Shown: positions 25,139 to 38,519 of the stretch, piece after piece
Layout of the letters: the number at the start of each line of letters is the position of its first letter
Numbering within the stretch: the stretch's first letter is position 1
Assembly (NCBI GenBank): GCA_030651305.1
Contig: JAUSCI010000005.1
Span: 1 to 49,297, forward strand
DNA length: 49,297 nucleotides
Direction: 5' to 3'
Source of the DNA: Sulfuritalea sp.
Lineage (GTDB): Bacteria; Pseudomonadota; Gammaproteobacteria; Burkholderiales; Rhodocyclaceae
Translations under genes and position numbers: made by a program
Notes under the pieces: model-generated
Database searches by the model: none
What the model saw: only the letters and a program-made list of their open reading frames with translations
What the model was told of the DNA's origin: nothing

Positions 25139-26970
25139 TCACCCGGCGCGGGGCGGAGAAAGGAATCTTGTTTCGAAGATCTCGCCCGGCACTGGTTTGC
25201 TGAACAAATAGCCCTGCATTTCGTCGCAGTCCAGCAAGCCCAGCAAACGCGATTGCTCGTCGGTTTCGACGCCCTCCGCCACCACCTTGAGCTTCAGCGA
25301 ATGCGCCAGGTTGATGATGGTGGAAACCAGCGCCATGCCCTGCGGTCCCCTCGTCATGTCGAACACGAACGAGCGGTCGATCTTCAGCGTATCGACCGGC
25401 AACTTGGCGAGGTAGCTCAGTGAGGAAAAACCGGTGCCGAAATCGTCGATGGCGATGCTGACGCCCATGGCGCGGATCGCCTGCAGGCTGGCGATGTTGT
25501 GCTTGACGTCCTGCATGATCACGCTTTCCGTGATTTCAAGTTCCAGCCCGGCCGCCGCCTGCGCACCGGTACCGATGGCCTGCTCGACCTCGGCGATGAA
25601 GCCACGCTGGCGCAGTTGCAGCGGCGACACATTCACCGCGATACGCACCGCCGCGAGGCCCGCGGCACGCCAGCGCAAATAGTCGGCGACGGCCTGGCGC
25701 AATGCCCACTGACCAACGTCATAGATCAGTCCGGTTTCTTCCAGGATCGGAATGAAGCGGCCCGGCGGCACCAGGCCGGTACTCGGATCGTTCCAGCGGA
25801 TCAGCGCCTCGGCGCTGGTCATCCTGCCGGTCGCGAGGTTCACTTTGGGCTGGTAATGCAGCACGAACTCGCCGTTGTCGAGCGCCTGGCGCAGCTGGTT
25901 TTCCAGGGTCAGCTTGCCGGCCACGGCTGCGGTCATTTCCTGTGCATAGAACAGGTAGCGCTCGCCGCTCGCCTTGGCCTTCTTCAGCGCCGCCTCGGCG
26001 TGCCTGAACAAGGTGTCGGCATCGGTACCGTCATCCGGAAACAATGCGACGCCGACTTTGAAGGCGATGCGGAACACGGCATCATTGAGGCGGAACGGAT
26101 GGTTCAGGAAAGCGTCATTGAATTTCTCCAGCAGCCGCACCACGTTGCCATCGTTCCTTACAATCGGCAGGACTGCGGCAAACTGGTCCGCACCCACTCG
26201 CGCCACAAGATTGGCGTCGCCTGCGGCATTGCGCGTCAACCACTCGGCGACTTGCCTCAAGAGCGCATCACCGGCCGGCCGGCCGAGGCTGTCGTTGATA
26301 TTCTTGAAGCGCTCCAGATCGATGAGGAACACGGCAAGATTGTGCCCGCCGCTGACAGCACTACGCAGGTACTGGGTCACCCGCTCGAGAAACAGGCCGC
26401 GGTTGGCGAGTCCGGTGAGTTCATCGTAGTAGGCCAGGTAATCGAGCTGCTCCTGCTTGCCGAGGTGATCGATCGCGAAGGCGATGTTACCGGCCAGCTC
26501 GCGCAGCAGCGTCATCTCCGCTTCGTCGAAATATCCGCCTTCTGCCGCATGTATGCAGAAAACCCCAACCGCTTCGTCCGCAACCAGCAAAGGCAGGCTC
26601 ACGCTGGAACGGATGCCCATATCCGCGTGCAGGGTCTTGTTGCGAATTCGGGGATCAGCCTCAACATCGTTCACGACGACCGCCTGTTTCTCCCTGACCG
26701 CCAAAGCGGGTGGGCCATACCCCTCGGGCGCGCTATCGAGCAGCGACAACCGCTCCCGCACTGCCTCAAGGAAACCAGCACTGGCGCCTGCCGAGGCGAC
26801 CGGAACAATCTTCATCGCGCTCCGATCGACGACACCTATCCAGGCCATCTGGAATCGGCCATCCTCGACCGCGATCCGACAGGCTTCCGTGAACACCTCG
26901 TCGCGGTCGCGCACGTGCACGATGAGCATATTGATGTCGCTCAACACCGCGTATACCCGGTTGAGACGGT
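25139..26970 (-). repeat. Paralogous GAF-GGDEF-EAL coding segment, copy 1
   Basis: This part of the gene, from the stop codon back to the LNRVYAVLSDIN motif, is highly similar at DNA level to 29092-30915 in direct orientation. Long blocks such as the CTGCATTTCGTCGCAGTCCA stretch (plus strand) are identical in both. The copies diverge sharply upstream of the GAF domain, where one has HAMP and membrane helices and the other PAS domains. Boundaries are estimated by eye. Confidence 0.8.
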
Positions 26971-28114
26971 TGATTCGCAGCGTTGCGAGTTGTAGCCCTG
27001 CGTCGCGTTCTTCCAGCGTTTCCGTCATTCGGTTCAACGCCACGGCCAGGGTTCCAAACTCGCTGTTGCCTTTGGGCGACAGGCGGGTCGATAGATCGCC
27101 CTGGGAAACCCGGCGGGCGAAACCAATGCACTCGTCAACCGATTTGGTAATGCTTCGGGAAATAATCAATGCGACCGCAAGTCCAAGCAGTGACGCCAGG
27201 AGCACTGCGGCACCAATTGCCCAGATGGCAATTTGCGCCTGCCTTTTTGCGTCATCTTGCGTGGTGTCGGCGTTCAGCTCGGCATTGGCATGAAGCTTTT
27301 CCAAAAGCGGCTCGACGGTGTGCGCAGCCGCGAGGTAGGCCGTCTGTTCCGCATCGATCCGAGTGCCAATTTCTGCGTATTGCTCGAACCACGCCTTGTA
27401 ATCGGTCGTTAGTCCAAGGAGCTTCCGCTTGACCTCGGGAGACAGGCGGGCCTGGGCCAGATCGACTCTGAATCGATCGATGCCTTGCGCAAATGCTTCG
27501 ACATACTTGTCGATACCGCGCGCAACGAAATCCTTTTCATGCCGACGCAGGGTGAGCAGGTCGACCATCAGTCGATCCTGATGGGCGGCACTCACGATCG
27601 CCTCTATGTCATGTGCCTTTTGCCGAAACTTGCCTTCGAAACCGGTGTTCATGTGTCCGCGACGGCCGTATAAGTCGACGACCCGAAGAAAGCCGACCTC
27701 GTATTGACCCACGGCCTGTTCAATCGCATGGGTCAGGTCGATTACCTCTGGTTCGCCACTCAACTCCCGAACATGAGCCATGTGTTGGCGGACCTCGGCG
27801 ATGTTGGTTCTCAACACCGTCACATAGCGAGATCTGGCTTCTGAAAAACCAAACTCGTTCCGGAATATCAAAAAGTCCTTCTCGGCACGCCGCGCCTTGA
27901 GCATCGCGACGTTGCTACTCAGGCTCAGATCGTCAATTCGACCGACAACGACAACGAGTTTGTCGACGGCTTCGATGGAGTGGTTTTGAGCGAACAGGGA
28001 AACGAAGCCAACGACGAGCGTCAGCGCGAGTACGGCGATGAAACCCGTCGCCAGCTCGGCCCGCAGGCTCAGGCGGCGGTACCACGCGGTTGCACTTTTT
28101 GTTCTGCTCTCCAC
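25139..28114 (-). CDS. Membrane HAMP-GAF-GGDEF(degenerate)-EAL protein with helical periplasmic sensor
   Basis: The 991-residue protein has membrane helices at about 18-40 and 300-322. The long helical periplasmic region between them carries two RRxEKDF-type motifs (RRAEKDFLIF and RRHEKDFVAR), reminiscent of HBM sensor domains. HAMP (about 322-375), GAF (about 385-555), GGDEF-type and EAL domains follow. The cyclase motif reads GADQF instead of GGDEF, so cyclase activity is doubtful. The EAL domain keeps SAEALIRW, IAIDDFGTGFSSL, LKIDRSF and AEGVET, so phosphodiesterase activity is likely. It starts 51 bases after a PstS-like gene. The GAF-to-EAL part nearly duplicates the protein encoded at 29092-32217. 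Confidence 0.92.
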   Translation of the reverse strand: MESRTKSATAWYRRLSLRAELATGFIAVLALTLVVGFVSLFAQNHSIEAVDKLVVVVGRIDDLSLSSNVAMLKARRAEKDFLIFRNEFGFSEARSRYVTVLRTNIAEVRQHMAHVRELSGEPEVIDLTHAIEQAVGQYEVGFLRVVDLYGRRGHMNTGFEGKFRQKAHDIEAIVSAAHQDRLMVDLLTLRRHEKDFVARGIDKYVEAFAQGIDRFRVDLAQARLSPEVKRKLLGLTTDYKAWFEQYAEIGTRIDAEQTAYLAAAHTVEPLLEKLHANAELNADTTQDDAKRQAQIAIWAIGAAVLLASLLGLAVALIISRSITKSVDECIGFARRVSQGDLSTRLSPKGNSEFGTLAVALNRMTETLEERDAGLQLATLRINRLNRVYAVLSDINMLIVHVRDRDEVFTEACRIAVEDGRFQMAWIGVVDRSAMKIVPVASAGASAGFLEAVRERLSLLDSAPEGYGPPALAVREKQAVVVNDVEADPRIRNKTLHADMGIRSSVSLPLLVADEAVGVFCIHAAEGGYFDEAEMTLLRELAGNIAFAIDHLGKQEQLDYLAYYDELTGLANRGLFLERVTQYLRSAVSGGHNLAVFLIDLERFKNINDSLGRPAGDALLRQVAEWLTRNAAGDANLVARVGADQFAAVLPIVRNDGNVVRLLEKFNDAFLNHPFRLNDAVFRIAFKVGVALFPDDGTDADTLFRHAEAALKKAKASGERYLFYAQEMTAAVAGKLTLENQLRQALDNGEFVLHYQPKVNLATGRMTSAEALIRWNDPSTGLVPPGRFIPILEETGLIYDVGQWALRQAVADYLRWRAAGLAAVRIAVNVSPLQLRQRGFIAEVEQAIGTGAQAAAGLELEITESVIMQDVKHNIASLQAIRAMGVSIAIDDFGTGFSSLSYLAKLPVDTLKIDRSFVFDMTRGPQGMALVSTIINLAHSLKLKVVAEGVETDEQSRLLGLLDCDEMQGYLFSKPVPGEIFETRFLSPPRAG

Positions 28115-28165: not shown

Positions 28166-29023
28166 TCAATCCAGGTACGGGACGAAATCATGCTGCACCA
28201 CGATTTCGGTGATCTGCGAAGACAGCGAAAAGTTGATGAAGTCTTTTGCCAGACCGGTCGGAAGGTCCCTGGTGAGCAACAGGAGCGGGCGAGACAAGGG
28301 GAAATTTCCGTTGCGGATGTTTTTCGTTGTGGCGGCCACACCGTCGATCGGCAGCAGCTTTATGGGAACACCCTTGTTCGCCTCGTGTAGAGCCGTGCCA
28401 AAGGACATATATGCTATGCCATTGGGGTTTTCGACGAGCGCCCTGACGCGCGCCAGATTGTCGCTCACCACGATCCGGGCCTTGATATCCGCGTATCTGA
28501 GGTCAAAGTAATGGGTAAAGAGATCGACTGAACCGATGTCTTCCTTTGCGTTTATCGGCGCAATCGGCGTGTCCTGGCCGCCGACTTTGCTCCAGTTATT
28601 GATCTTTCCGGTATAGATGTCGAGCACTTGCCGGTTGCTCAGGCTTTGCACCGGATTATTCTTGTGCACCACCAGACCAACCCCGTCGCGCGCGATTGCG
28701 AAGCTGTAGAGACTGCTATCCTTATCCGCCAGGGCGCGCGACGCCATGCCGATATCGGCTTTCCCCTTCGTCACGTCGTCGATGCCTCGTCCCGACCCAG
28801 TGACTTTCACCTCGATCTGCACGCCCGGATGCAGTGTCGAGAAACGCTTGCCGACCGCCACCATCATCGGCGCCATCGTGCTTGAGCCTGAGATGAGAAG
28901 CTTGCCGGACGCAGGCGCGGTTCCTTTTGCCGGAGGCTTTTCCGCAGCGTAGACACTGCTACAGGCCAGGCACGCCGCCAACAGCAGTGCGGAAATGGAA
29001 AGTTCATTGTCAGCGATAAACAT
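28166..29023 (-). CDS. PstS-like periplasmic phosphate/anion-binding protein (orphan)
   Basis: This 285-residue exported protein has a signal peptide with cleavage likely after SSVYA (about residue 26). The mature part has the phosphate-binding-protein pattern: LLISGSSTMAPMM, KVTGSGRGIDDVTKGKADIG and NPVQSLSNRQVLDIYTG. The ATG at 29023 is chosen because it gives a proper signal peptide; the frame is open to 29095. PstS proteins normally feed a PstCAB transporter, but no permease or ATPase gene is nearby. It lies between two GGDEF-EAL genes and 51 bases ahead of the membrane-bound one, so a role as a ligand-presenting sensor subunit is inferred. Confidence 0.88.
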   Translation of the reverse strand: MFIADNELSISALLLAACLACSSVYAAEKPPAKGTAPASGKLLISGSSTMAPMMVAVGKRFSTLHPGVQIEVKVTGSGRGIDDVTKGKADIGMASRALADKDSSLYSFAIARDGVGLVVHKNNPVQSLSNRQVLDIYTGKINNWSKVGGQDTPIAPINAKEDIGSVDLFTHYFDLRYADIKARIVVSDNLARVRALVENPNGIAYMSFGTALHEANKGVPIKLLPIDGVAATTKNIRNGNFPLSRPLLLLTRDLPTGLAKDFINFSLSSQITEIVVQHDFVPYLD

Positions 29024-29091
29024 AGCTCTCAAGTGCCTCGCAGAGAGTCGCGTACTACCACTACCGATGGAATCCCCGCCGCCATTATTCG

Positions 29092-30915
29092 TCACCCGGC
29101 CGCAGGCGGAGCCAGGAATCTCGTTTCGAATGTATTGCCCGGTACCGGTTTACTGAATAAAAAGCCCTGCATTTCGTCGCAGTCCAGCAAGTGCAGCAGG
29201 CGTTGCTGTTCCTCGGTTTCGACGCCTTCGGCCACCACCTTGAGTTTCAGCGAATGCGCCAGCTTGATGACGGTGGATACCAGCGCCAGTCCCTGCGGCC
29301 CGGCGGTCATGTCGATCACGAACGAGCGGTCGATCTTCAGCGTGTCCACCGGAAGTTTGGCGAGGTAGCTGAGCGAGGAGAAACCGGTACCGAAGTCGTC
29401 GATGGCGATGCTGACGCCCATGGCACGGATCGCCTGCAGGCTGGCGATGTTGTGCTTGACGTCCTCCATGATCAGGCTTTCGGTAATCTCCAGTTCCAGC
29501 CCGGCCGCCGCATGTTCGTCAATGGCGATGACCTGCTCAATTTCGTCGATGAAGCCGCGATTGCGTAGTTGCAAAGGCGACACGTTCACTGCGATGCGCA
29601 CCGCCGGCAAACCTGCGGCACGCCAGCGCAGGTAGTCGGCGATGGCCTGGCGCAGCGCCCAGCGCCCGACGTCATTGATCAATCCGGTCTCTTCCAGGAT
29701 CGGGATGAAGCGGCCCGGCGGTACCAGGCCCGTGAGCGGATCGTTCCAGCGAATCAGCGCCTCGGCGCTGGTCATCTTGCCGGTGGCGAGGTTCACCTTG
29801 GGCTGGTAATGCAGCACGAATTCTTCGTTGTCGAGCGCCTGGCGTAGTTGATTTTCCAGGGTGAGCTTGCCCGCCACGGCTGCGGTCATTTCCTGTGCAT
29901 AGAACAGGTAGCGTTCGCCGCTCGCCTTGGCCTTCTTCAGCGCGGCCTCGGCGTGCCTGAACAAGGTATCGGCATCCGCACCGTCGTCCGGGAACAATGC
30001 GACGCCAATCTTGGCGGCGATGCGGAACACGGCGTCATTGAGGCGAAACGGGCTGTCCAGCAGATCTTCCAACGATTTCTCGAGAAGCCGTGCCACGTCG
30101 CCTTCCTGCCTTACTTCCGGCAGCACCGCGGCAAAATGGTCGGCACCCACGCGCGCCAGTAGGTTGACGTCGCCCGTCCGGCGCGTCAGCCACTCCGCCA
30201 CCTGCCGCAAAAGCGCATCGCCGGCCGGCCGGCCGAGGCTGTCGTTGATGTTCTTGAAGCGCTCCAGATCGATCAGGATCACGGCCAGCTGGTGCCCGCC
30301 GCTGACCGCGCTGCTCATGTACTGCGTTACCCGGTCGAGAAACAGATTGCGGTTCGCCAGTCCGGTGAGCACATCGTAGTAGGCCAGGTAATCTATCCGC
30401 TCCTGCCTTCCGATGTGATCAATCGCGAAAGCGATGTCGCCGGCCAGTTCAGTCAGCAGGGTCATCTCCTCTTCGCCGAAGAATTCGGTCTCGCCGGCGT
30501 ACAGCGCTATTACGCCAATGGCTATATCAGAGACCATCAGCGGCAACACGGCCATCGAGCGGACTCCGGATTCAATGTATTTCTTGCCGAACAGAACCCT
30601 GGGGTCGGTTCGCGAATCGTTGGACACGACGGCTTTTTTCTCCCGTATCGCCCGTGCGATCATGGTTTTGGGTGCGTCCTCACTCGAGGACAGGATCGTC
30701 CGGATGGCGCTCAAGAGCTCATCATCCTTGCCCGCCGACGCTACCGGGACAATCTTCATCGCACTCTGATCGACGATGGCTATCAATGCCATGAGGAAGC
30801 CGCCGGTCTCGACAGCGACCCGGCACGCTTCCCTGAATAACTGGTCCCGATCACGCACGCGCACAATCAGTGTGTTGATGCCGCTCAGCACGGCATATAC
30901 GCGGTTGAGGAATAC
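29092..30915 (-). repeat. Paralogous GAF-GGDEF-EAL coding segment, copy 2
   Basis: This is the partner of 25139-26970 in direct orientation about 4 kb away, with the PstS-like gene between the copies. Similarity extends to a shared GTCACCCGGC at the stop codons. It implies a fairly recent tandem duplication followed by replacement of the N-terminal sensor module. Boundaries are estimated by eye. Confidence 0.8.
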
Positions 30916-32217
30916 GATTCTGGCATCCGCCTTCATGCGCTCGGTGACATCGTCCGCCGTGGCGTAGGTAACGCCTTCATGCCGGTCAAAGTAGGCCGTC
31001 CACGACAAATTGATCACTGTGCCGTCAATGCGCAGGTAGCGGTTTTCGAAATGCAAGGTTGGCCGGCTTTCCACCTGCAGCTTCATTTCATCAATGGTCG
31101 TCTGGCGGTCCGCCGGCAGCACAAAATCGAGAAATGGCTTTGTCAGGAGTTCGCTTTCCGGATAACCGGTCATCTGCGCAAACGCGGGGTTAACCTGCAT
31201 GAAACAGCCGTAGGGATCGGCAATGCACATTGCGTTGGTTGAAAGCATGAAGAACTTGAAATACTGCTCTTTCTCCTGCTCCAATCGCTTGCGCTCGGTG
31301 ATGTCGCGAATGGCGCTAATCACCAGGGGACCTTCGTCCGTCTCCAGCGGGCTCAAGCTGATTTCCGCCGGAAATTCGGTACCGTCCTTGCGCAACCCGA
31401 ACTGGTCCAGTCTTGGTTCCGATCCCATTGCCCGTGAACGTGGTTTTTCAAAATAGCCGCCCTGGTTTCCGTGGTGCTTGCCGCGAAAGCGTTCCGGGAC
31501 AAGGATGTCAATCTTCTGCCCCAGCAGGTCCTCGCGGTGCCAGCCGAACAGCTTGACCGCCTGGGCGTTGACTAGCACCATTTCGGCGTCGTGGTTGACG
31601 ATCACCATCGCGTCAGGCGCTGCCTCGAGAAGATCCTTGAACTTCTGCTCGGCCCTCTTGCGCTCGGTGATGTCCAGGTGCATGACGACGACGCCATGGA
31701 GATGGTTTCCCGCCAGTGGCGTCACGGTCATCAGGAACCAGCGCTGTTGCGTTGGCGAATGACAGGGATACTCCAGCGAAAAGCTCTTTGCACCACCAGC
31801 CAACACCGACCGAATGCCTGCGGCAACCCGTGGCGCCTCGGCTGCGTCGTCACCGCTTGCGCGGTCGCAAAGCTCGAGGTAATTGACGCCGATCCCGTAT
31901 TGCGGACCCAACAGCCCATTGGTGCCGGCAAATTGCCGCCATCCCTCGTTCACCGAGATGATGATTCCCTGGCTATCGAGCAAAGCGATATGCGCGGGCA
32001 GCGCGTTGAGGATGGCGGCCTGCTTGGCGGCTTCGCTGTCACGCAACTGCTCCTGCGCATGCCGCAACAAGAACGTCCGGCCGCCACGGTCCGCGACCGC
32101 ATCCACTTCGCCTGCCGTCAGTTCCTCCAGGCGTTGCCCGGTCAAGTGCAGCGTTTCGATCAGCGCGGAGATTTCTTCATGCGCATCCCGCGGAGACGGT
32201 AGTTTGGCCGGTTTCAT
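29092..32217 (-). CDS. PAS-PAS-PAS-GAF-GGDEF(degenerate)-EAL protein, third gene of the Kai operon
   Basis: The 1041-residue protein has no membrane helix. Three PAS domains occupy about 60-185, 190-310 and 315-430, then GAF at 440-595, a GGDEF-type domain at 600-765 whose motif reads GADHF (691-695), and an EAL domain from about 780. The EAL domain has EALIRW (819-824), IAIDDFGTGFSSL, LKIDRSF and VAEGVETEEQ. The cyclase site looks inactive and the phosphodiesterase site intact. Its ATG overlaps the kaiB stop (ATGA), so translation is coupled to KaiB. This makes it the best candidate output of the KaiBC pair. Confidence 0.93.
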   Translation of the reverse strand: MKPAKLPSPRDAHEEISALIETLHLTGQRLEELTAGEVDAVADRGGRTFLLRHAQEQLRDSEAAKQAAILNALPAHIALLDSQGIIISVNEGWRQFAGTNGLLGPQYGIGVNYLELCDRASGDDAAEAPRVAAGIRSVLAGGAKSFSLEYPCHSPTQQRWFLMTVTPLAGNHLHGVVVMHLDITERKRAEQKFKDLLEAAPDAMVIVNHDAEMVLVNAQAVKLFGWHREDLLGQKIDILVPERFRGKHHGNQGGYFEKPRSRAMGSEPRLDQFGLRKDGTEFPAEISLSPLETDEGPLVISAIRDITERKRLEQEKEQYFKFFMLSTNAMCIADPYGCFMQVNPAFAQMTGYPESELLTKPFLDFVLPADRQTTIDEMKLQVESRPTLHFENRYLRIDGTVINLSWTAYFDRHEGVTYATADDVTERMKADARIVFLNRVYAVLSGINTLIVRVRDRDQLFREACRVAVETGGFLMALIAIVDQSAMKIVPVASAGKDDELLSAIRTILSSSEDAPKTMIARAIREKKAVVSNDSRTDPRVLFGKKYIESGVRSMAVLPLMVSDIAIGVIALYAGETEFFGEEEMTLLTELAGDIAFAIDHIGRQERIDYLAYYDVLTGLANRNLFLDRVTQYMSSAVSGGHQLAVILIDLERFKNINDSLGRPAGDALLRQVAEWLTRRTGDVNLLARVGADHFAAVLPEVRQEGDVARLLEKSLEDLLDSPFRLNDAVFRIAAKIGVALFPDDGADADTLFRHAEAALKKAKASGERYLFYAQEMTAAVAGKLTLENQLRQALDNEEFVLHYQPKVNLATGKMTSAEALIRWNDPLTGLVPPGRFIPILEETGLINDVGRWALRQAIADYLRWRAAGLPAVRIAVNVSPLQLRNRGFIDEIEQVIAIDEHAAAGLELEITESLIMEDVKHNIASLQAIRAMGVSIAIDDFGTGFSSLSYLAKLPVDTLKIDRSFVIDMTAGPQGLALVSTVIKLAHSLKLKVVAEGVETEEQQRLLHLLDCDEMQGFLFSKPVPGNTFETRFLAPPAAG

Positions 32218-32504
32218 GCTGCGATGTCTAGCAACCCCAACGCCTGCAACACGGTCTGCGTATGACTGAGTGTGCCGACGATTCTGCGCACCGGTGGCGG
32301 CGTCAGTACGACCAGCGTCGGTGTCATGAAGATGCCTTCTGCCAGCGCGCGCTTCGGTTCCCGGAACACGTCCACCACTTCGATCTCGTACCGATCCGGC
32401 AGATGCGCCCGGCAGAACGCGGCAAGATTGGCGATTGCCTGCGCCGAGTTCGGCGCGTCGCCGGCGACAAACAGGCGGAACTTGAACATGGCGCGCCGGC
32501 TCAT
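32214..32504 (-). CDS. kaiB: KaiB-family protein
   Basis: This 96-residue thioredoxin-like protein matches the KaiB family: FKFRLFVAGDAPNSAQAIAN at the N-terminus and MTPTLVVLTPPPVRRIVGTL in the C-terminal half, equivalent to the cyanobacterial TPTL...PPPVRRIIG block. KaiB binds the KaiC CI ring after a fold switch; whether this protein fold-switches is unknown. The start codon overlaps the kaiC stop and the stop overlaps the next gene's start, both as ATGA. An internal Met6 is an alternative start, but the coupling favours the first ATG. No kaiA gene is present. Confidence 0.93.
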   Translation of the reverse strand: MSRRAMFKFRLFVAGDAPNSAQAIANLAAFCRAHLPDRYEIEVVDVFREPKRALAEGIFMTPTLVVLTPPPVRRIVGTLSHTQTVLQALGLLDIAA

Positions 32505-34246
32505 GACGGGCTCACTTTCTTTCCCGGAATCGCCGCATCGGCCCCGCGCAACTCCTGCATCTGCGTGCGCCCGCGCGACAACTCGCCTTCGTGACTTTGC
32601 GTGGAGCGGACCAGCAAGGCCTTCTCGACCTGCTTCGCCACCAGTTCCGTCTGCAAGGATTTCAAGCGCACCTCGAGTTCGGCCTCTTCGGCATCGAGCC
32701 TGACGCGCTTGAGCTTCGCGGCGGCCTCGGCGGCTTCATGCGCGACCCGCTCGGCGCGTTCCTTTTCCCAGCGCAAGGTGCCCATCAGCACCTCGCCGCC
32801 GGCCGTGTAGGTGTCGGTCAGCGTCACTCCCGCATCGCTCAGGATCAGCTCGCGCACCTGGTTCGAATGCGCCGTGCCGCGGGACTTGACGATGGACAGG
32901 CCGCGGTTGCGCTCACCGGCCTGCATCAGGTAGTTGAGGTGGATCCAGGTGTCCGCCAGCGTCGAGATCTGCAGCGGCGAACCGCTTTCCGTCCGGTTCG
33001 ACATCTCGTCGAGCAAACTGGTGCAGAGCAGCGTAATGCCGTCGCCCTTGGACCAGTCGATCAAGCGGTCTGCAACGCTTTGCGCGGTCAGGTCATTGCC
33101 GGATTTGTACCATGTGGATACCGGGTCAATCACCAGGCACCTGGCGCCGTGCTCTTTCGCCAGCGTCTTGATGCGCACCAGGTAGGTCTCTGCGCTGCCC
33201 GCGATGGAGCGCGCCGAGACCATCAGCAGGCTACCGTTCTTGATGTATCGCTCCAGCCGGATGCCAACCGAGGCCAAGTTGCGGATCACTTCGTTGCAAT
33301 CCGAATCAAAGCTGACGAACATGGTGCGCTCGCCGCGCCGGCAGGCCGCTTCGGCGAACGCTGCACTCAGGGTGGTTTTGGCCGTGCCGGAGAAGCCGGT
33401 GATCAGCACGCTGGCGCCGCGATAGTAGCCGCCGCCGAGCATGGTATCGAGCCGCTCCACGCCACTGGAAACGCGTTCGCTGCTGACCTTGGCGTCCACC
33501 CGGACCCGCGTGCGCGCGACGGCGACCTCCAGGCCGGAGTTGCCGATCAGGAATGGCGATTCATTCTCGTCGAAGCCGGAGCCGCGATACTTCTGCACGC
33601 GCAGGTTGCGATGCGACACACCCAAGGCCACGCTATGGTTGAGGATCACGGCGCAGTCCACCATGAATTGCATGAAGCCGAAGGGCTGCTCGATGATGGA
33701 ACTCGCCTCGTCCCCGCCAGCCTTCGCGGTGATGATGCCCGTCAGGTCGTGCGCCAATAACCACTCGTGCAGCCGGTAAATCTCGCGCCTTTTTGTCGCC
33801 GGGTCAGGCAACAGCGCCAACACGACATCCAGCGCATCGAATACTATGCGCCGCGCCCTCATTCCCCTGGTTTGTGCCTCCAGCGCCGCCAGCATCCCGC
33901 CCAGATCGAAATCCCCCGACTGGATCAGGCTCGGCAGCGGCTGCGCGTCCATGAAATAGAGATTCTTTTTTTGCAGGGCCGCGAGTTTCCAGCCGAAACT
34001 CTCGGCATTGGCCACGATGCGCTTCGAGCTTTCCTCAAAGGCGACAAAGATGCCGGGTTCCCTGCAATCCTGGGCGCCATGCACCAGGAATTGCAATGCC
34101 AGTACGGTTTTGCCGGAGCCGGGTCCGCCCACCAGCAGCGTCGTTCGGCCGTGCGGCAGACCGCCACCGGTGATTTCATCGAAACCGGCGATGCCGGTCG
34201 GCGCCTTGGCTGGCGATTTGATGCGGGGAGATCTGGTCAATTTCAT
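32501..34246 (-). CDS. kaiC: KaiC-family double-domain ATPase with C-terminal coiled coil
   Basis: The 581-residue protein has two RecA-like domains. CI has Walker A GGPGSGKT (40-47), the Glu pair FEESSKR (71-72) and Walker B RIVFDAL. CII has Walker A GFSGTAKT (284-291) and Walker B LVIDPVS (371-377). QISTLADT aligns with the cyanobacterial Ser431/Thr432 phosphorylation segment, giving Ser428 and Thr429. The CII position of the catalytic Glu pair reads FDSD. After about residue 490 a Glu/Ala/Lys-rich coiled coil replaces the usual KaiA-binding tail. The SD AGGAGAAAGG precedes the ATG, which overlaps a 23-codon upstream ORF. Confidence 0.94.
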   Translation of the reverse strand: MKLTRSPRIKSPAKAPTGIAGFDEITGGGLPHGRTTLLVGGPGSGKTVLALQFLVHGAQDCREPGIFVAFEESSKRIVANAESFGWKLAALQKKNLYFMDAQPLPSLIQSGDFDLGGMLAALEAQTRGMRARRIVFDALDVVLALLPDPATKRREIYRLHEWLLAHDLTGIITAKAGGDEASSIIEQPFGFMQFMVDCAVILNHSVALGVSHRNLRVQKYRGSGFDENESPFLIGNSGLEVAVARTRVRVDAKVSSERVSSGVERLDTMLGGGYYRGASVLITGFSGTAKTTLSAAFAEAACRRGERTMFVSFDSDCNEVIRNLASVGIRLERYIKNGSLLMVSARSIAGSAETYLVRIKTLAKEHGARCLVIDPVSTWYKSGNDLTAQSVADRLIDWSKGDGITLLCTSLLDEMSNRTESGSPLQISTLADTWIHLNYLMQAGERNRGLSIVKSRGTAHSNQVRELILSDAGVTLTDTYTAGGEVLMGTLRWEKERAERVAHEAAEAAAKLKRVRLDAEEAELEVRLKSLQTELVAKQVEKALLVRSTQSHEGELSRGRTQMQELRGADAAIPGKKVSPS

Positions 34247-34314
34247 CCTTTCTCCTTCAGCATGGATTCGGCTTCGCGGTCGAAAACCGCGGAATCTGGG
34301 TTGGTTGTTGACAT
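34243..34314 (-). CDS. Short ORF (23 codons) coupled to kaiC
   Basis: On the minus strand an ATG at 34314 follows a textbook SD (GGAGGT, 5 bases away). It opens a frame of 23 residues, MSTTNPDSAVFDREAESMLK plus EKG, ending in a TGA that overlaps the kaiC ATG as ATGA. The kaiC SD lies inside its last codons. The strong SD and exact coupling argue that it is translated, as a leader that drives kaiC translation or as a small protein. It is too short to identify, and no hairpin attenuator was noticed around it. The 207 bases upstream of it, up to the divergent synthetase gene, showed no confident promoter. Confidence 0.55.
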   Translation of the reverse strand: MSTTNPDSAVFDREAESMLKEKG

Positions 34315-34521: not shown

Positions 34522-36222
34522 ATGTCACGACAAAAACTGATCCTCGACTACGTGTTCGATCACGAAGCGACACACCCGGACAAGGTCTATCTTTCGCAGC
34601 CGGTCGGCGGCGGCAAGGTGGTCGACTACACTTGGGCGCAGACCCTGGACCATGCGCGCAGGATGGCCGCTCATCTTCTGAGCCGGGGCTTCGAACCGGG
34701 GGCCAGAATCGCCATCCTGTCGAAGAACTGCGCCCACTTCTTCATGGCAGAACTGGCCATATGGATGGCCGGCGGCACGACTGTGGCGATCTTTCCGACG
34801 GAGACAGCGGCCACTGTCCGCTACGTGCTGGAGCACAGCGGAGCCAGCCTCCTGTTTGTCGGCAAGCTCGATACCTGGCACCAACAATCATCAGGTGTTT
34901 CCGCCGGGCTTCCCTGCATCGCCTTTCCGCTTGCCCCCGAGACGGCCTTCGACACCTGGGACGCGATCATCGCACAGACTCCTCCGCTCGGCGGCCGGCC
35001 AAACCGTGCCGCGAACGACCTGGCAATGCTGATGTACACCTCGGGTTCCACCGGGCAGCCGAAGGGAGTCATGCATAGTTTCGAAAGGATCACCCGCGCC
35101 AGCGAATGCATCAGGCAGCACAGCTTGTCGATAGCAGGAAGGGAACCTGAGGCCAGGATGCTTTCCTACCTGCCGCTGGCACATGTTTTCGAGCGGGCGT
35201 GGGTGGAATGCTCGTCGATGATCGACGGAAGCACGCGCATATTCTTTGCCGAGTCGCTGGATACCTTCATGCAGGACCTGCAGCGTGCCCGACCCACCCG
35301 GTTCGTCTCGGTACCGCGGCTATGGCTAAAGTTCCAGCAAGGGGTATTCGCGAAGATGCCCCCGGAAAAACTCGACCGGCTATTGCGCATCCCGATCCTG
35401 GGACGTCTTGTCGGACGCAAGGTACTGAAGGGCCTGGGTCTGGATCAGGTTCTAAGCGCCGGCAGCGGCTCTGCCCCCATTCCCGGCGAACTGATCACGT
35501 GGTACCGGCGCCTCGGCCTGAACCTTCTGGAGGGCTACGCGATGACGGAGGATTTTGCCTACTCCCATAGCTCGACTCAAGCGCTCAATGCTCCGGGCTA
35601 TGTCGGCCCACCCGGAGAGGGTGTCGAGGTACGGATAAGCGAGGACGGCGAAATCCTGATCAAGTCGCCCGGCCAGATGCTGGGCTACTACAAACGCCCC
35701 GATCTGGATGCGGAATGTTTCACCGGGGACGGGTTCTTCCGCACCGGAGACATGGGCGAACGACGCCCCGATGGCCTGCTCAAGATCACCGGGCGGACCA
35801 AGGAACTGTTCAAGACGTCCAAGGGAAAATACGTCACCCCGGCCCCCATCGAGAACCGGCTGAACGCACACCCGCTGGTGGAGATGGCGCTGGTTTCGGG
35901 CATCGGCCAGCCGGCAGCCTATGCGCTGGTGGTCCTCACCGAGGACCGACGCCAAAAGTTGCGCGACCCGGCGGTCAGAACGCGAACCGAAGAGGAGCTT
36001 GAGCGACTGCTGAAGGAAGTGAACGCGCAACTGGCCCACTACGAACAACTGAAGATGATCGTCGTCTCGCCCGAGCCGTGGACCATCGAGAACGGATGCC
36101 TGACGCCGACCATGAAAGTTCGCCGCAGCCGCATCGAGGCGGCCGTCAGTGCCGAAGTGGAAGCCTGGTACGACATGCAGGTTGCCGTGCACTGGGCCGC
36201 ACCGTCCAGACCTGCCGCCTGA
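34522..36222 (+). CDS. AMP-forming acyl-CoA synthetase (long-chain fatty-acid CoA ligase type)
   Basis: The 566-residue enzyme activates a carboxylic acid with ATP and CoA. The adenylate-forming motifs are MYTSGSTGQPKGVMHS (residues about 170-185), GYAMTEDFAYSH (A5 region near 340), and FFRTGDMGERRPDGLLKITG followed by KELFKTSKGKYVTP in the hinge and C-terminal domain. FKTSKGKYV is characteristic of long-chain ACSL-type ligases; the precise substrate is not readable. AGGA lies about 8 bases before the ATG. It diverges from the Kai operon across 207 bases and faces a convergent cyclase gene 44 bases after its end. Confidence 0.93.
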   Translation: MSRQKLILDYVFDHEATHPDKVYLSQPVGGGKVVDYTWAQTLDHARRMAAHLLSRGFEPGARIAILSKNCAHFFMAELAIWMAGGTTVAIFPTETAATVRYVLEHSGASLLFVGKLDTWHQQSSGVSAGLPCIAFPLAPETAFDTWDAIIAQTPPLGGRPNRAANDLAMLMYTSGSTGQPKGVMHSFERITRASECIRQHSLSIAGREPEARMLSYLPLAHVFERAWVECSSMIDGSTRIFFAESLDTFMQDLQRARPTRFVSVPRLWLKFQQGVFAKMPPEKLDRLLRIPILGRLVGRKVLKGLGLDQVLSAGSGSAPIPGELITWYRRLGLNLLEGYAMTEDFAYSHSSTQALNAPGYVGPPGEGVEVRISEDGEILIKSPGQMLGYYKRPDLDAECFTGDGFFRTGDMGERRPDGLLKITGRTKELFKTSKGKYVTPAPIENRLNAHPLVEMALVSGIGQPAAYALVVLTEDRRQKLRDPAVRTRTEEELERLLKEVNAQLAHYEQLKMIVVSPEPWTIENGCLTPTMKVRRSRIEAAVSAEVEAWYDMQVAVHWAAPSRPAA

Positions 36223-36266: not shown

Positions 36267-38519
36267 TCAAGCTTTCGCGGTATGGAACCGTATCAAGTTG
36301 CGGCCTGCCTCCTTGGCTTGATACATCGCCGCATCAGCCCATTTCAGCACTTCGTCCTGGCTGGCTTCGTGACCGAGAAACAAGGCCACGCCGATACTTG
36401 CCGTGCAATGATGCTCGACGCTGATCTCGGCTCCCCCTTCGCGTTCGATGATCAGCTCATAGGGGCCCGATAACCTGATCCGGATTTTTTCCGCAACGAT
36501 CTCGGCGTTTGCAATCGACTCCGCTTTGCTCGTATTCAAGTCCCTCAGCATGACCACAAATTCATCGCCGCCGAAGCGCGCCACCGTGTCCGTTTCGCGT
36601 ACGCAGCTTTTCAGCCGATGCGCCACTTCGATCAACAGCAAATCGCCGATCGCATGCCCGTGCCTGTCGTTGAGCGGCTTGAAATTGTCCAGGTCGAGGA
36701 ACATCAACGCGCCATGGCAAGCGCTGCGCTTGCTGAATGCCAGGGCCTGACTCAGGCGATCATTGAGCAGGCGCCGGTTCGCCAGCTTGGTCAGCGCATC
36801 GTAGAAAGCCAGTTCGCGCACCTGCTCTTCCATCTGCTTGCGTTCGGTGATGTCGCGGGCCATGGCAAACACCAGGGCCTTGTCATAGAGTTCGAAGATG
36901 TGCGCGTTGACTTCCACCGGTATGACCCTGCCGTCGCGGGTGCGGTGGAAGCTCTCGTAGACCGCCTCGCGGCGGAACGCCAGCTTGATGTTGGGTGCCG
37001 GGTGGGCCGCCGCCTCCGCGGCGATGATGTCCTCGGGCCGCATCCGCAGCAGTTCCTCGCGGCTGTAGCCAAGGCGGTAGCAGGCCATGTCGTTCACCTC
37101 GACGAAGTGTCCGACGGGCGAGCCGGAGATCGAGTCGGCCTCATAGACGAAAATAGGATCGTTGCCGCTGTTGAACAGGAGCCGTATGTGTTTCTCGGAT
37201 TCCTTCAGAGTCTTCTCGGTTCGCTTGCGCTCGGTGATGTCGATGACCACGCCGATAAGGCCGCGTTTCTCGCCGCTGGCGTCATAGAAACGCTTGCCTG
37301 TCAGATGGCCCCAGAATGCGGTGTGGTCGGCGCGCCAATAGAGGCGGTCCAGATCGACAAGGGGAATTGCGCTGGCCAGCAGGTCAAGCATCTTCTGTCG
37401 CCCCGTCTCGCGCTCTTCCGGGTGAACCAGCGCCACATACTCGTTGCCCACCAGTTCATCGAGAGCCCAGCCGAACATCTCGGCCATGCGCTGGTTGGCT
37501 TGCGTGATGCGCCCCGTCATGTCGACCAGAAATATCCCCACACTGGACGTATCGAGGATTTGCTTGAGCAAAGCCTCGCGTCCCGCCAGATCCTCGTTTA
37601 CCCTTGCCAGCGCCTGCGTGCGTTCGGCGACCTTCTGTTCGAGCTCCCCTCGATGCGCCTGCAGCTTCATTACCAGTAGTGCCACATAGCCCAGCAGCAG
37701 GCTGAATATCAGGCCGAGGACGACCTTGAGCCAGAATTCAACCGGGTTGCCCCACCAGCCCTTGATGGGAGCGACACCCAGGACCCAGTTGCCGTAAGCC
37801 AAATCCAGATTCTGTTCCACGGGCGCGATCAGGGCGCTGGATGTGGACGCGGCAATGATCTGTTTCCGTCCGTTGTCCGGATGAATGCGCCAAATTTCGT
37901 AATCGACGCCCTGCTCTGCCAACTGCGGCAGCCGGGCGCCGACGAGCGCCTCGGGAAAACGGATGACGACGTTGGTGAATCCCCAGAAGTAGGGCGTGCC
38001 GCTTGCATCTTCAAGAAACACCGGCAAGCGTCCGACGGCGCCGAAGCCGCCCTGGACCAGATTCATCGGCCCGGCCAGCGTCAGTTTTCCGCTGTCCCGG
38101 GCGATCATGGCCTCCTTGCGCTGCCCCGGACTCCGCAACTGGTCGAAGCCGATCGCCTTTTCGTTGCCGGCCAGCGGCACGGCTTGCCGAATGATTCCTC
38201 CGGGCGACAGTTCCAGCGCGGATACCCCCGGATAAAACCGCAGCATCTGGCCTGCCACGGCGTCGAAGTTGGCGATCTTGCCGTTTCCCTGGCGAACCAG
38301 TGCAGCCAGGGCGTAGGTGGCGGACAGGGCTCTTTCGATAGTAGTCTCGAGCGCACGCGCATGGTCTTTGGCCAAACCGGCGAAACGCGCGCGGTTTTCC
38401 TGCAAGTGATGCTGTTCAGATTCCCGGATCAGGCCCGCCGCGATCGCCGCGGCAAGCAGAAAAATGCCCAAGGCCACGACCAGCGGGCGCTGGTTGGCTG
38501 AACGGATCATGGCCATCAA
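36267..38519 (-). CDS. CHASE-PAS-PAS-GGDEF membrane diguanylate cyclase
   Basis: The 750-residue protein has a membrane helix at about 12-28 and an extracytoplasmic CHASE-type domain (about 70-245, including FYPGVSALELSPGGIIRQAV). A second membrane helix lies near 265-290, then a coiled coil, PAS domains (about 325-440 and 450-580) and a GGDEF domain. The GGDEF motif is intact at 650-654 with an RETD inhibitory site five residues before it, so it is probably an active, product-inhibited cyclase. CHASE domains sense small extracellular ligands. It is convergent with the synthetase gene. A short GCTTGA/TCAAGC repeat at 36223-36272 might help terminate but is weak. Confidence 0.92.
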   Translation of the reverse strand: MMAMIRSANQRPLVVALGIFLLAAAIAAGLIRESEQHHLQENRARFAGLAKDHARALETTIERALSATYALAALVRQGNGKIANFDAVAGQMLRFYPGVSALELSPGGIIRQAVPLAGNEKAIGFDQLRSPGQRKEAMIARDSGKLTLAGPMNLVQGGFGAVGRLPVFLEDASGTPYFWGFTNVVIRFPEALVGARLPQLAEQGVDYEIWRIHPDNGRKQIIAASTSSALIAPVEQNLDLAYGNWVLGVAPIKGWWGNPVEFWLKVVLGLIFSLLLGYVALLVMKLQAHRGELEQKVAERTQALARVNEDLAGREALLKQILDTSSVGIFLVDMTGRITQANQRMAEMFGWALDELVGNEYVALVHPEERETGRQKMLDLLASAIPLVDLDRLYWRADHTAFWGHLTGKRFYDASGEKRGLIGVVIDITERKRTEKTLKESEKHIRLLFNSGNDPIFVYEADSISGSPVGHFVEVNDMACYRLGYSREELLRMRPEDIIAAEAAAHPAPNIKLAFRREAVYESFHRTRDGRVIPVEVNAHIFELYDKALVFAMARDITERKQMEEQVRELAFYDALTKLANRRLLNDRLSQALAFSKRSACHGALMFLDLDNFKPLNDRHGHAIGDLLLIEVAHRLKSCVRETDTVARFGGDEFVVMLRDLNTSKAESIANAEIVAEKIRIRLSGPYELIIEREGGAEISVEHHCTASIGVALFLGHEASQDEVLKWADAAMYQAKEAGRNLIRFHTAKA

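Follow-up and report, generated by a model that had tools for sequence, protein, structure and literature searches.

Described KaiBC systems and the Sulfuritalea locus

In non-cyanobacterial kaiC-kaiB clusters, a histidine kinase gene or a GGDEF/EAL gene almost always lies immediately downstream (PMC3164672, the Ramlibacter genome paper); here and below, statements taken from published papers refer to passages of their text. Operons of the kaiC-kaiB-PAS type are described in purple bacteria (PMC4794148, PMC6627678). We analyzed a kaiC-kaiB cluster of Sulfuritalea sp. located in a 49,297-nucleotide stretch (GenBank assembly GCA_030651305.1, contig JAUSCI010000005.1), hereafter called the window. 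Its third gene encodes a PAS-GAF-GGDEF-EAL protein predicted to break down cyclic diguanylate (c-di-GMP). The kaiC-kaiB clusters of PMC3164672 (first kaiC context) have the same gene content and order class. A preliminary description of the window had inferred a link between Kai proteins and c-di-GMP; the gene linkage itself is not new, a GGDEF/EAL gene after kaiC-kaiB having already been published in 2011 (PMC3164672). Two other features distinguish the window: an N-terminal element common to the kinase and EAL proteins encoded after kaiB, and a change in the CII domain of KaiC. The text passages of PMC3164672 mention neither of them; the N-terminal domain that they describe, RtaNt (KaiB/SasA-like), is ascribed only to kinases from clusters without kaiB. 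Both features were likewise not found in literature searches of open-licence PubMed Central text, figures and supplements excluded.

The hourglass KaiBC of Rhodobacter sphaeroides and the proto-circadian KaiBC of Rhodopseudomonas palustris (PMC10076222, PMC4794148) are encoded in the same kaiC-kaiB-PAS operon, without KaiA. They also comprise a two-domain KaiC with a C-terminal extension and a KaiB that binds CI. However, their third gene encodes a PAS histidine kinase whereas that of the window encodes a predicted phosphodiesterase. Moreover, in the alignment the CII Glu pair is present in R. sphaeroides KaiC, where the window KaiC has Asp-Ser. As compared to cyanobacterial KaiABC with SasA/CikA, the KaiB and KaiC families are alike, as would be the binding of a thioredoxin-like KaiB to CI. 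Differences are that the window has no KaiA, that SasA was not found in the genome, that the CII Glu pair is absent and that the predicted output is c-di-GMP breakdown. The module bears on the question of the role of KaiBC outside cyanobacteria and of its output path.

The three genes, defined by open reading frame calls and Pfam, are on the reverse strand: kaiC at 32501..34246 (581 amino acids), kaiB at 32214..32504 (96 amino acids) and the output gene at 29092..32217 (1041 amino acids). As announced in the preliminary description, ATGA overlaps are read in the DNA between the kaiC stop and the kaiB start (32501..32504) and between the kaiB stop and the output gene start (32214..32217), so that the overlapping string is confirmed in the window. 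Related kaiB loci were located by tblastn. A single genome scan using an alignment of KaiBs as query yielded 63 loci, from which the seven most distant (L138-L144) were dropped. In the 56 loci kept, with start codons chosen by script, the kaiB-output overlap is 4 nucleotides long in 42 cases and the kaiC-kaiB overlap in 35. The proposed search for such gene strings and for conservation of their overlaps thus shows that both recur, and a linkage unique to this strain is excluded. Overlaps of 4 nucleotides are frequent in bacteria and constitute weak proof when taken alone; their recurrence across loci is more telling than a single overlap.

The upper limit initially given to the module, 34314, is the start of a 23-codon frame (34314-34243, reverse strand, ATGA overlap with kaiC) and not that of kaiC. 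By eye, no similar peptide precedes kaiC in 36 relatives. Therefore, this candidate fourth overlapping gene was rejected and the kaiC start was taken as 34246. The nearest KaiC rows come from Sterolibacterium and Betaproteobacteria, with Sulfuritalea among the kin.

An N-terminal element is kept in proteins encoded right after kaiB

In the related loci, the proteins encoded right after kaiB have in common about 50 N-terminal residues, hereafter called the N-element, which are kept while the gene after kaiB changes its output. In the window, the N-element corresponds to residues about 13-62 of the output protein (32032..32181, reverse strand). No Pfam family was found over it in this protein. 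An AlphaFold2 model of residues 1-195 (49 alignment rows, mean predicted local distance difference test score, pLDDT, of 85.7) predicts a helix (11-33), a beta hairpin (40-50) and a second helix (52-72) followed by a PAS fold. Using the model of the N-element and the first PAS domain, Foldseek gave PAS proteins among the matches listed (best 50).

To describe the distribution of the N-element, residues 1-70 of the window protein and of 29 loci were aligned (alignment A2) and the resulting profile was searched in 101 relatives and 369 genomes of the class (470 scans, the own genome, G000, being in both sets). In the class set, scoring was limited to 16 candidates per genome; in G000 it covered all 49. 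Matches were obtained in 13 genomes. In ten of them (G000, G015, G022, G027, G046, G119, G182, G250, G302 and G349), the match is immediately downstream of a KaiB match. G000, G027, G046 and G349 are rows of A2 and the six others are not; the matches in G119 (8e-4) and G182 (2e-5) are weak. The three remaining matches (G124, G291, G383) are weak and unrelated, with no KaiB or KaiC nearby. To judge from their sequences, one is a 53-residue frame, another a coiled coil of chemoreceptor type and the third a membrane protein that contains a coiled coil. With such a distribution over the 470 scans, the idea that the N-element is a general feature of PAS proteins was rejected. In the own genome, a single match remains despite the presence of 20 EAL domains.

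The first PAS domain was also considered as the constant unit. This was rejected because it is replaced in four loci while the N-element remains. Indeed, where the first PAS domain is unalignable or only weakly alignable, N-element identity is still 86% over 50 residues in L092, 74% over 46 residues in L112, 58% in L127 and 56% in L128.

The N-element was further looked for at 31 other KaiB loci, 6 from close kin and 25 with distant KaiBs. In the six close-kin loci, it is found right after kaiB with 97-112 bits. At the distant loci, the best match is at most 250 nucleotides after the stop of a kaiB on the same strand in 12 of 25 cases, where about 0.4 would be expected. All nine distant loci scoring at least 11 bits have their match right after kaiB. 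Some of the 25 loci share genomes with the profile matches described above, so that the two tests overlap. Overall, the data suggest that the N-element is a shared plug, through which the Kai pair would be connected to whichever enzyme it controls. Its position right after kaiB gives indirect support to a functional coupling of KaiBC and the output protein.

The same observations have to be weighed against an explanation without contact, in which the operon partners would simply take part in a common stress or energy response, the N-element being the dimerisation helix of a PAS sensor that travels with kaiBC. Overlapping genes indeed yield co-expression only, a predicted helix-hairpin-helix running into a PAS domain stands at the usual place of a signalling coiled coil, and the diverse PAS/GAF sensors downstream can take other inputs. 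However, away from kaiB the N-element is represented in the 470 scans by the three weak unrelated matches only, the other EAL proteins of the own genome do not carry it, and it survives exchange of both the first PAS domain and the output. We consider this explanation rather unlikely.

Output domains are exchanged among related loci

Output types were assigned in the 56 loci except for 11, in which contigs end or no frame was found. Proteins with a degenerate GGDEF domain followed by EAL (type E) are encoded in 24 loci and in the window, some of them being incomplete. Another GGDEF-EAL lineage (type G) is found in five loci (L082, L083, L099, L103, L110), with a REC domain after EAL seen by Pfam in L083, the sole type-G protein scanned. 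Two loci (L085, L111) encode a PAS-kinase-REC-REC-Hpt-EAL protein (type X). Finally, 12 loci encode a complete kinase without EAL (type H), in addition to two incomplete kinases (L087, L096). Several loci come from isolates, namely Aromatoleum diolicum (X), Pelomonas Root1237, Methylotuvimicrobium buryatense 5G and Methylomonas methanica (E) and Rhizobium NFR03 (H). Therefore, the variety of outputs is not just a binning artefact.

Close kin of the window illustrate the exchange. In L083 and L082, identity to the window is 90-91% for KaiC and 76-77% for output residues 1-190, versus 46-52% for GAF-GGDEF-EAL. L111, with 88% identity for KaiC and 76% for output residues 1-190, has a kinase-REC-Hpt-EAL output. 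In L118, where these values are 80% and 64%, the output is a plain kinase-REC-Hpt protein. The preliminary description had viewed c-di-GMP as the output of the Kai module. However, c-di-GMP is not a dedicated output, because kinases or kinase-REC-Hpt-EAL proteins occupy the same place in kin with KaiCs 80-88% identical to that of the window.

On a KaiC tree (51 rows, 36 labelled), six changes are counted among the four output types, three of them between EAL-bearing and kinase-only outputs. Well-supported branches force four changes for type E and two for kinase-only outputs; the bootstrap is unsettled and some long branches are unsure. A first quick tree gave seven changes, four of them between EAL and kinase, with L087 and L096 counted as kinase-only and L092, L095, L119 and L120 as type E. 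These six labels were left out of the later tree because the contigs or frames end early. As a separate observation, a GAF domain is repeated nine times before GGDEF in the protein encoded after kaiB in L119 (8332-14825), the frame of which runs off the contig.

The output protein is a predicted c-di-GMP phosphodiesterase

According to Pfam, which gives several PAS matches, the window output protein consists of the N-element, three PAS domains, a GAF domain, a GGDEF domain (612-768) and an EAL domain (789-1024). The GGDEF signature reads GADHF, departing from GG(D/E)EF. The GG(D/E)EF motif is lost in all 25 type-E proteins and kept in four of the five type-G proteins. We took EAL, N, E, DD, K, E and Q to be the catalytic sites of the EAL domain; all are present in the window protein and in the 27 complete EAL domains compared. 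The protein is therefore predicted to be a c-di-GMP phosphodiesterase with an inactive cyclase signature, in line with the preliminary description. Structure matches of the GGDEF-EAL part are MucR, MorA and DosP (5m3c, 4rnh, 9bgv), which are phosphodiesterases with the same tandem GGDEF-EAL and an intact EAL. DosP is a like-built, PAS-controlled phosphodiesterase. Unlike these proteins, the window protein has a Kai-linked N-element, is preceded by kaiC-kaiB and has a degenerate GGDEF domain.

The completeness of the EAL sites also bears on the direction of control. In a reversed arrangement, the state of KaiC-KaiB would be set by c-di-GMP or by the PAS/GAF sensors of the third protein, which would then be an input. 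Degenerate GGDEF-EAL proteins can act as receptors, c-di-GMP alters the period and phase of the Synechococcus elongatus clock (PMC13001216, 2026), and the linked kinase of R. sphaeroides was proposed to relay a redox signal to KaiBC (PMC5520375). On the other hand, since catalytic residues are kept in 27 out of 27 complete EAL domains, these domains look like enzymes, and the kinase-REC and kinase-REC-Hpt types resemble signal emitters. A reversed control thus appears improbable to us.

A paralogue of the output gene, encoding a HAMP-GAF-GGDEF-EAL protein, is located two genes away (25139-28114, reverse strand). Protein identity is 83% in GGDEF, 88% in EAL and 56% in GAF, and the N-termini are unrelated. 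At the DNA level, identity is 84.7% over 1392 nucleotides and breaks off sharply ahead of the GGDEF domain, so that the GGDEF-EAL block is likely shared by duplication or gene conversion. Such an event is a possible route of output exchange.

The CII domain of KaiC is altered throughout the clade

The window KaiC matches the KaiC family of Pfam in two stretches (297.7 bits), which bears out the two P-loop domains of the preliminary description, with the qualification that the CI P-loop is intact and that of CII is altered. The best match in the PDB is R. sphaeroides KaiC (8dba, expectation value 7.1e-104, residues 13-558). The C-terminal extension (about residues 490-581) resembles that of R. 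sphaeroides KaiC, which makes up a coiled-coil bundle in the hourglass system, and is aligned with 8dba up to residue 558. Among NCBIfam equivalogs, NF006799 is above its cut-off (476.2 versus 408) and TIGR02655 is below (269.5 versus 546.25).

In CI, the Glu pair is intact, like the P-loop. In CII, the P-loop reads GFSGTAKTT and the Glu pair is replaced by Asp314-Ser315, while two adjacent phosphosites, Ser428-Thr429, are present. We compared 44 clade KaiCs longer than 450 residues, including that of the window. The CI Glu pair is kept in all 44. The first CII Glu is Asp in all of them and the second position is Ser in 37, Thr in 6 and Glu in 1. The residue before the P-loop Lys of CII is Ala in 44 out of 44 (GTAK). 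The first phosphosite is Ser in 43 sequences, whereas the second is more variable (Thr 26, Ala 9, Lys 5, Ser 3, Met 1), with Thr or Ser in 29. Four distant KaiCs retain Glu-Glu in CII and GTGK/GTGKT.

The Glu pair is present in all cyanobacterial KaiC subgroups (PMC5520375), a Glu close to the gamma-phosphate may serve as general base (PMC6378743), and changing all four Glu residues to Gln lowers the ATPase activity of KaiC (PMC4794148). Given this role, it is a reasonable inference that the CII kinase of the clade is weak or absent, and a phosphorylation cycle of the cyanobacterial type is in doubt. A daily time course of KaiC phosphorylation, as had been suggested, may show little, because the CII Glu pair is changed clade-wide and the second phosphosite is variable. 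The clade would thus be one where Kai function may not depend on a phosphorylation cycle.

These data also bear on the idea of a true circadian or hourglass KaiBC clock similar to that of R. sphaeroides, with c-di-GMP as a timed output. The closest solved KaiC is indeed the R. sphaeroides hourglass protein, C-terminal extension included, the gene order kaiC-kaiB-PAS/histidine kinase is that of Rhodopseudomonas and Rhodobacter (PMC4794148), and Ser428-Thr429 are kept in the window. However, the clade-wide changes in the catalytic Glu pair and in the P-loop Gly of CII, the variability of the second phosphosite, the lack of KaiA in the own genome and the non-phototrophic hosts among the kin all argue against a clock, which we regard as highly improbable.

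KaiB and the Kai complement of the genome

KaiB matches Pfam PF07689 with 72.8 bits (cut-off 27) and contains the PPPVRRIVG block mentioned in the preliminary description. Its scores are below the cut-offs of the NCBIfam clock-KaiB equivalogs (63.8 versus 145.3 for TIGR02654, 66.6 versus 110 for NF006798). Its matches include known KaiBs such as that of Legionella (4kun). An AlphaFold2 model built with 45 close kin (pLDDT 87.6) is thioredoxin-like, with the strand and helix order of the KaiC-binding (fold-switched) state. The closest structures, 4kun, 5jwr, 5jwo and 8fwj, are KaiC-bound or fold-switch-stabilised KaiBs together with 4kun, and no ground-state KaiB entry was found among the matches listed (best 50). 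This gives a hint that KaiB may rest in its KaiC-binding fold. Close-kin alignments were found to give more faithful AlphaFold2 models of KaiB, whereas a full alignment yields the fold-switched form even where the ground state differs (PMC10808063).

In the own assembly (3.9 Mb, 97.6% complete), no match to KaiA (PF07688) was obtained, the S. elongatus control being positive. The single KaiB-domain match of this genome is the 96-residue kaiB product itself, and therefore no SasA was found. The absence of kaiA and sasA in the preliminary description is thus borne out by the genome search. Four KaiC-family matches are present, two being the domains of the KaiC studied here and two being partial ones elsewhere. 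Of the 101 relatives, 11 have a KaiB. Among the 369 class genomes, 33 have a KaiB match at an expectation value of 0.001, and 28 of these are above the Pfam cut-off. Its distribution is therefore patchy. Several loci, among them L020, L021, L022 and L073, show a different type of KaiB operon, with two tandem kaiB matches after kaiC.

A proposed model for control of the output protein by KaiBC

Put together, the data partly support the interpretation given in the preliminary description, and they are consistent with the following scheme. KaiB, KaiC and an output protein with an N-element would be produced from one translationally coupled operon. The CI ring of KaiC would sense the ATP/ADP state. 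KaiB, probably held mostly in its KaiC-binding fold, would bind CI. Then, KaiB, KaiC or their complex would dock on the helix-hairpin-helix of the N-element running into the PAS domain. Docking would shift the coiled coil and the PAS/GAF relay, thereby turning the EAL phosphodiesterase up or down, with the degenerate GGDEF as a possible GTP-binding regulator of the EAL domain. With an altered CII, the system would be a switch or a slow timer powered by the ATPase of CI, and not a clock based on Ser/Thr phosphorylation. For docking of KaiC-KaiB on the N-element and the resulting gating of the phosphodiesterase, we see the chances as evenly balanced.

Several points weigh against this scheme. 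In 13 of the 25 distant loci, the best N-element match is not located right after kaiB, and the element is therefore not universal in KaiB operons. The element is short, helical and adjoins a PAS domain; it could therefore be a sensor or dimerisation part. Because at most 16 candidates per class genome were scored, N-elements outside Kai loci were possibly missed. With KaiB in only 11 of 101 relatives, the module is accessory. The KaiB model is weak evidence since AlphaFold2 favors the fold-switched state with deep alignments. Concerning CII, Asp might still act as base, and the window KaiC keeps both phosphosites. Finally, the action of c-di-GMP on the cyanobacterial clock (PMC13001216) means that control could run in the other direction.

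A broader proposal can be made, tentatively. KaiB-KaiC would be a portable front end reporting a slow state or ATP state, and the N-element a Kai-specific socket for any output enzyme, be it a c-di-GMP phosphodiesterase, a bifunctional GGDEF-EAL-REC protein, a kinase-REC-Hpt-EAL protein or a plain kinase. This clade would run on the CI ATPase alone, with CII as a non-kinase regulator, state or time being kept without a phosphorylation clock. We hold this whole as possible, though on the unlikely side.

Should the N-element prove to be the docking part, it would be a genomic marker of KaiBC-driven genes, and the question could be addressed experimentally using a peptide of about 70 residues together with the purified Kai proteins, KaiB and KaiC. 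An ATP-reading Kai module would then have a direct tie to c-di-GMP and, through it, to decisions on biofilm formation and motility. The related loci would offer naturally swapped outputs from which timed or energy-gated signalling could be engineered.

Neighbouring genes

A third gene of c-di-GMP type in the vicinity, upstream of kaiC, encodes a CHASE-PAS-PAS-GGDEF protein (36267-38519, reverse strand, Pfam). Beside it, a divergent gene encodes an AMP-binding enzyme (34522-36222, forward strand). On the other side, between the two EAL genes, lies a gene for a PBP-like (PF12849) solute-binding protein (28166-29095, reverse strand). Its longest frame has a GTG start that overlaps the stop of the output gene by GTGA; by eye, an in-frame ATG near 29023, ahead of a signal-peptide-like stretch, is a likelier start. 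This solute-binding protein may feed the adjoining membrane EAL protein.

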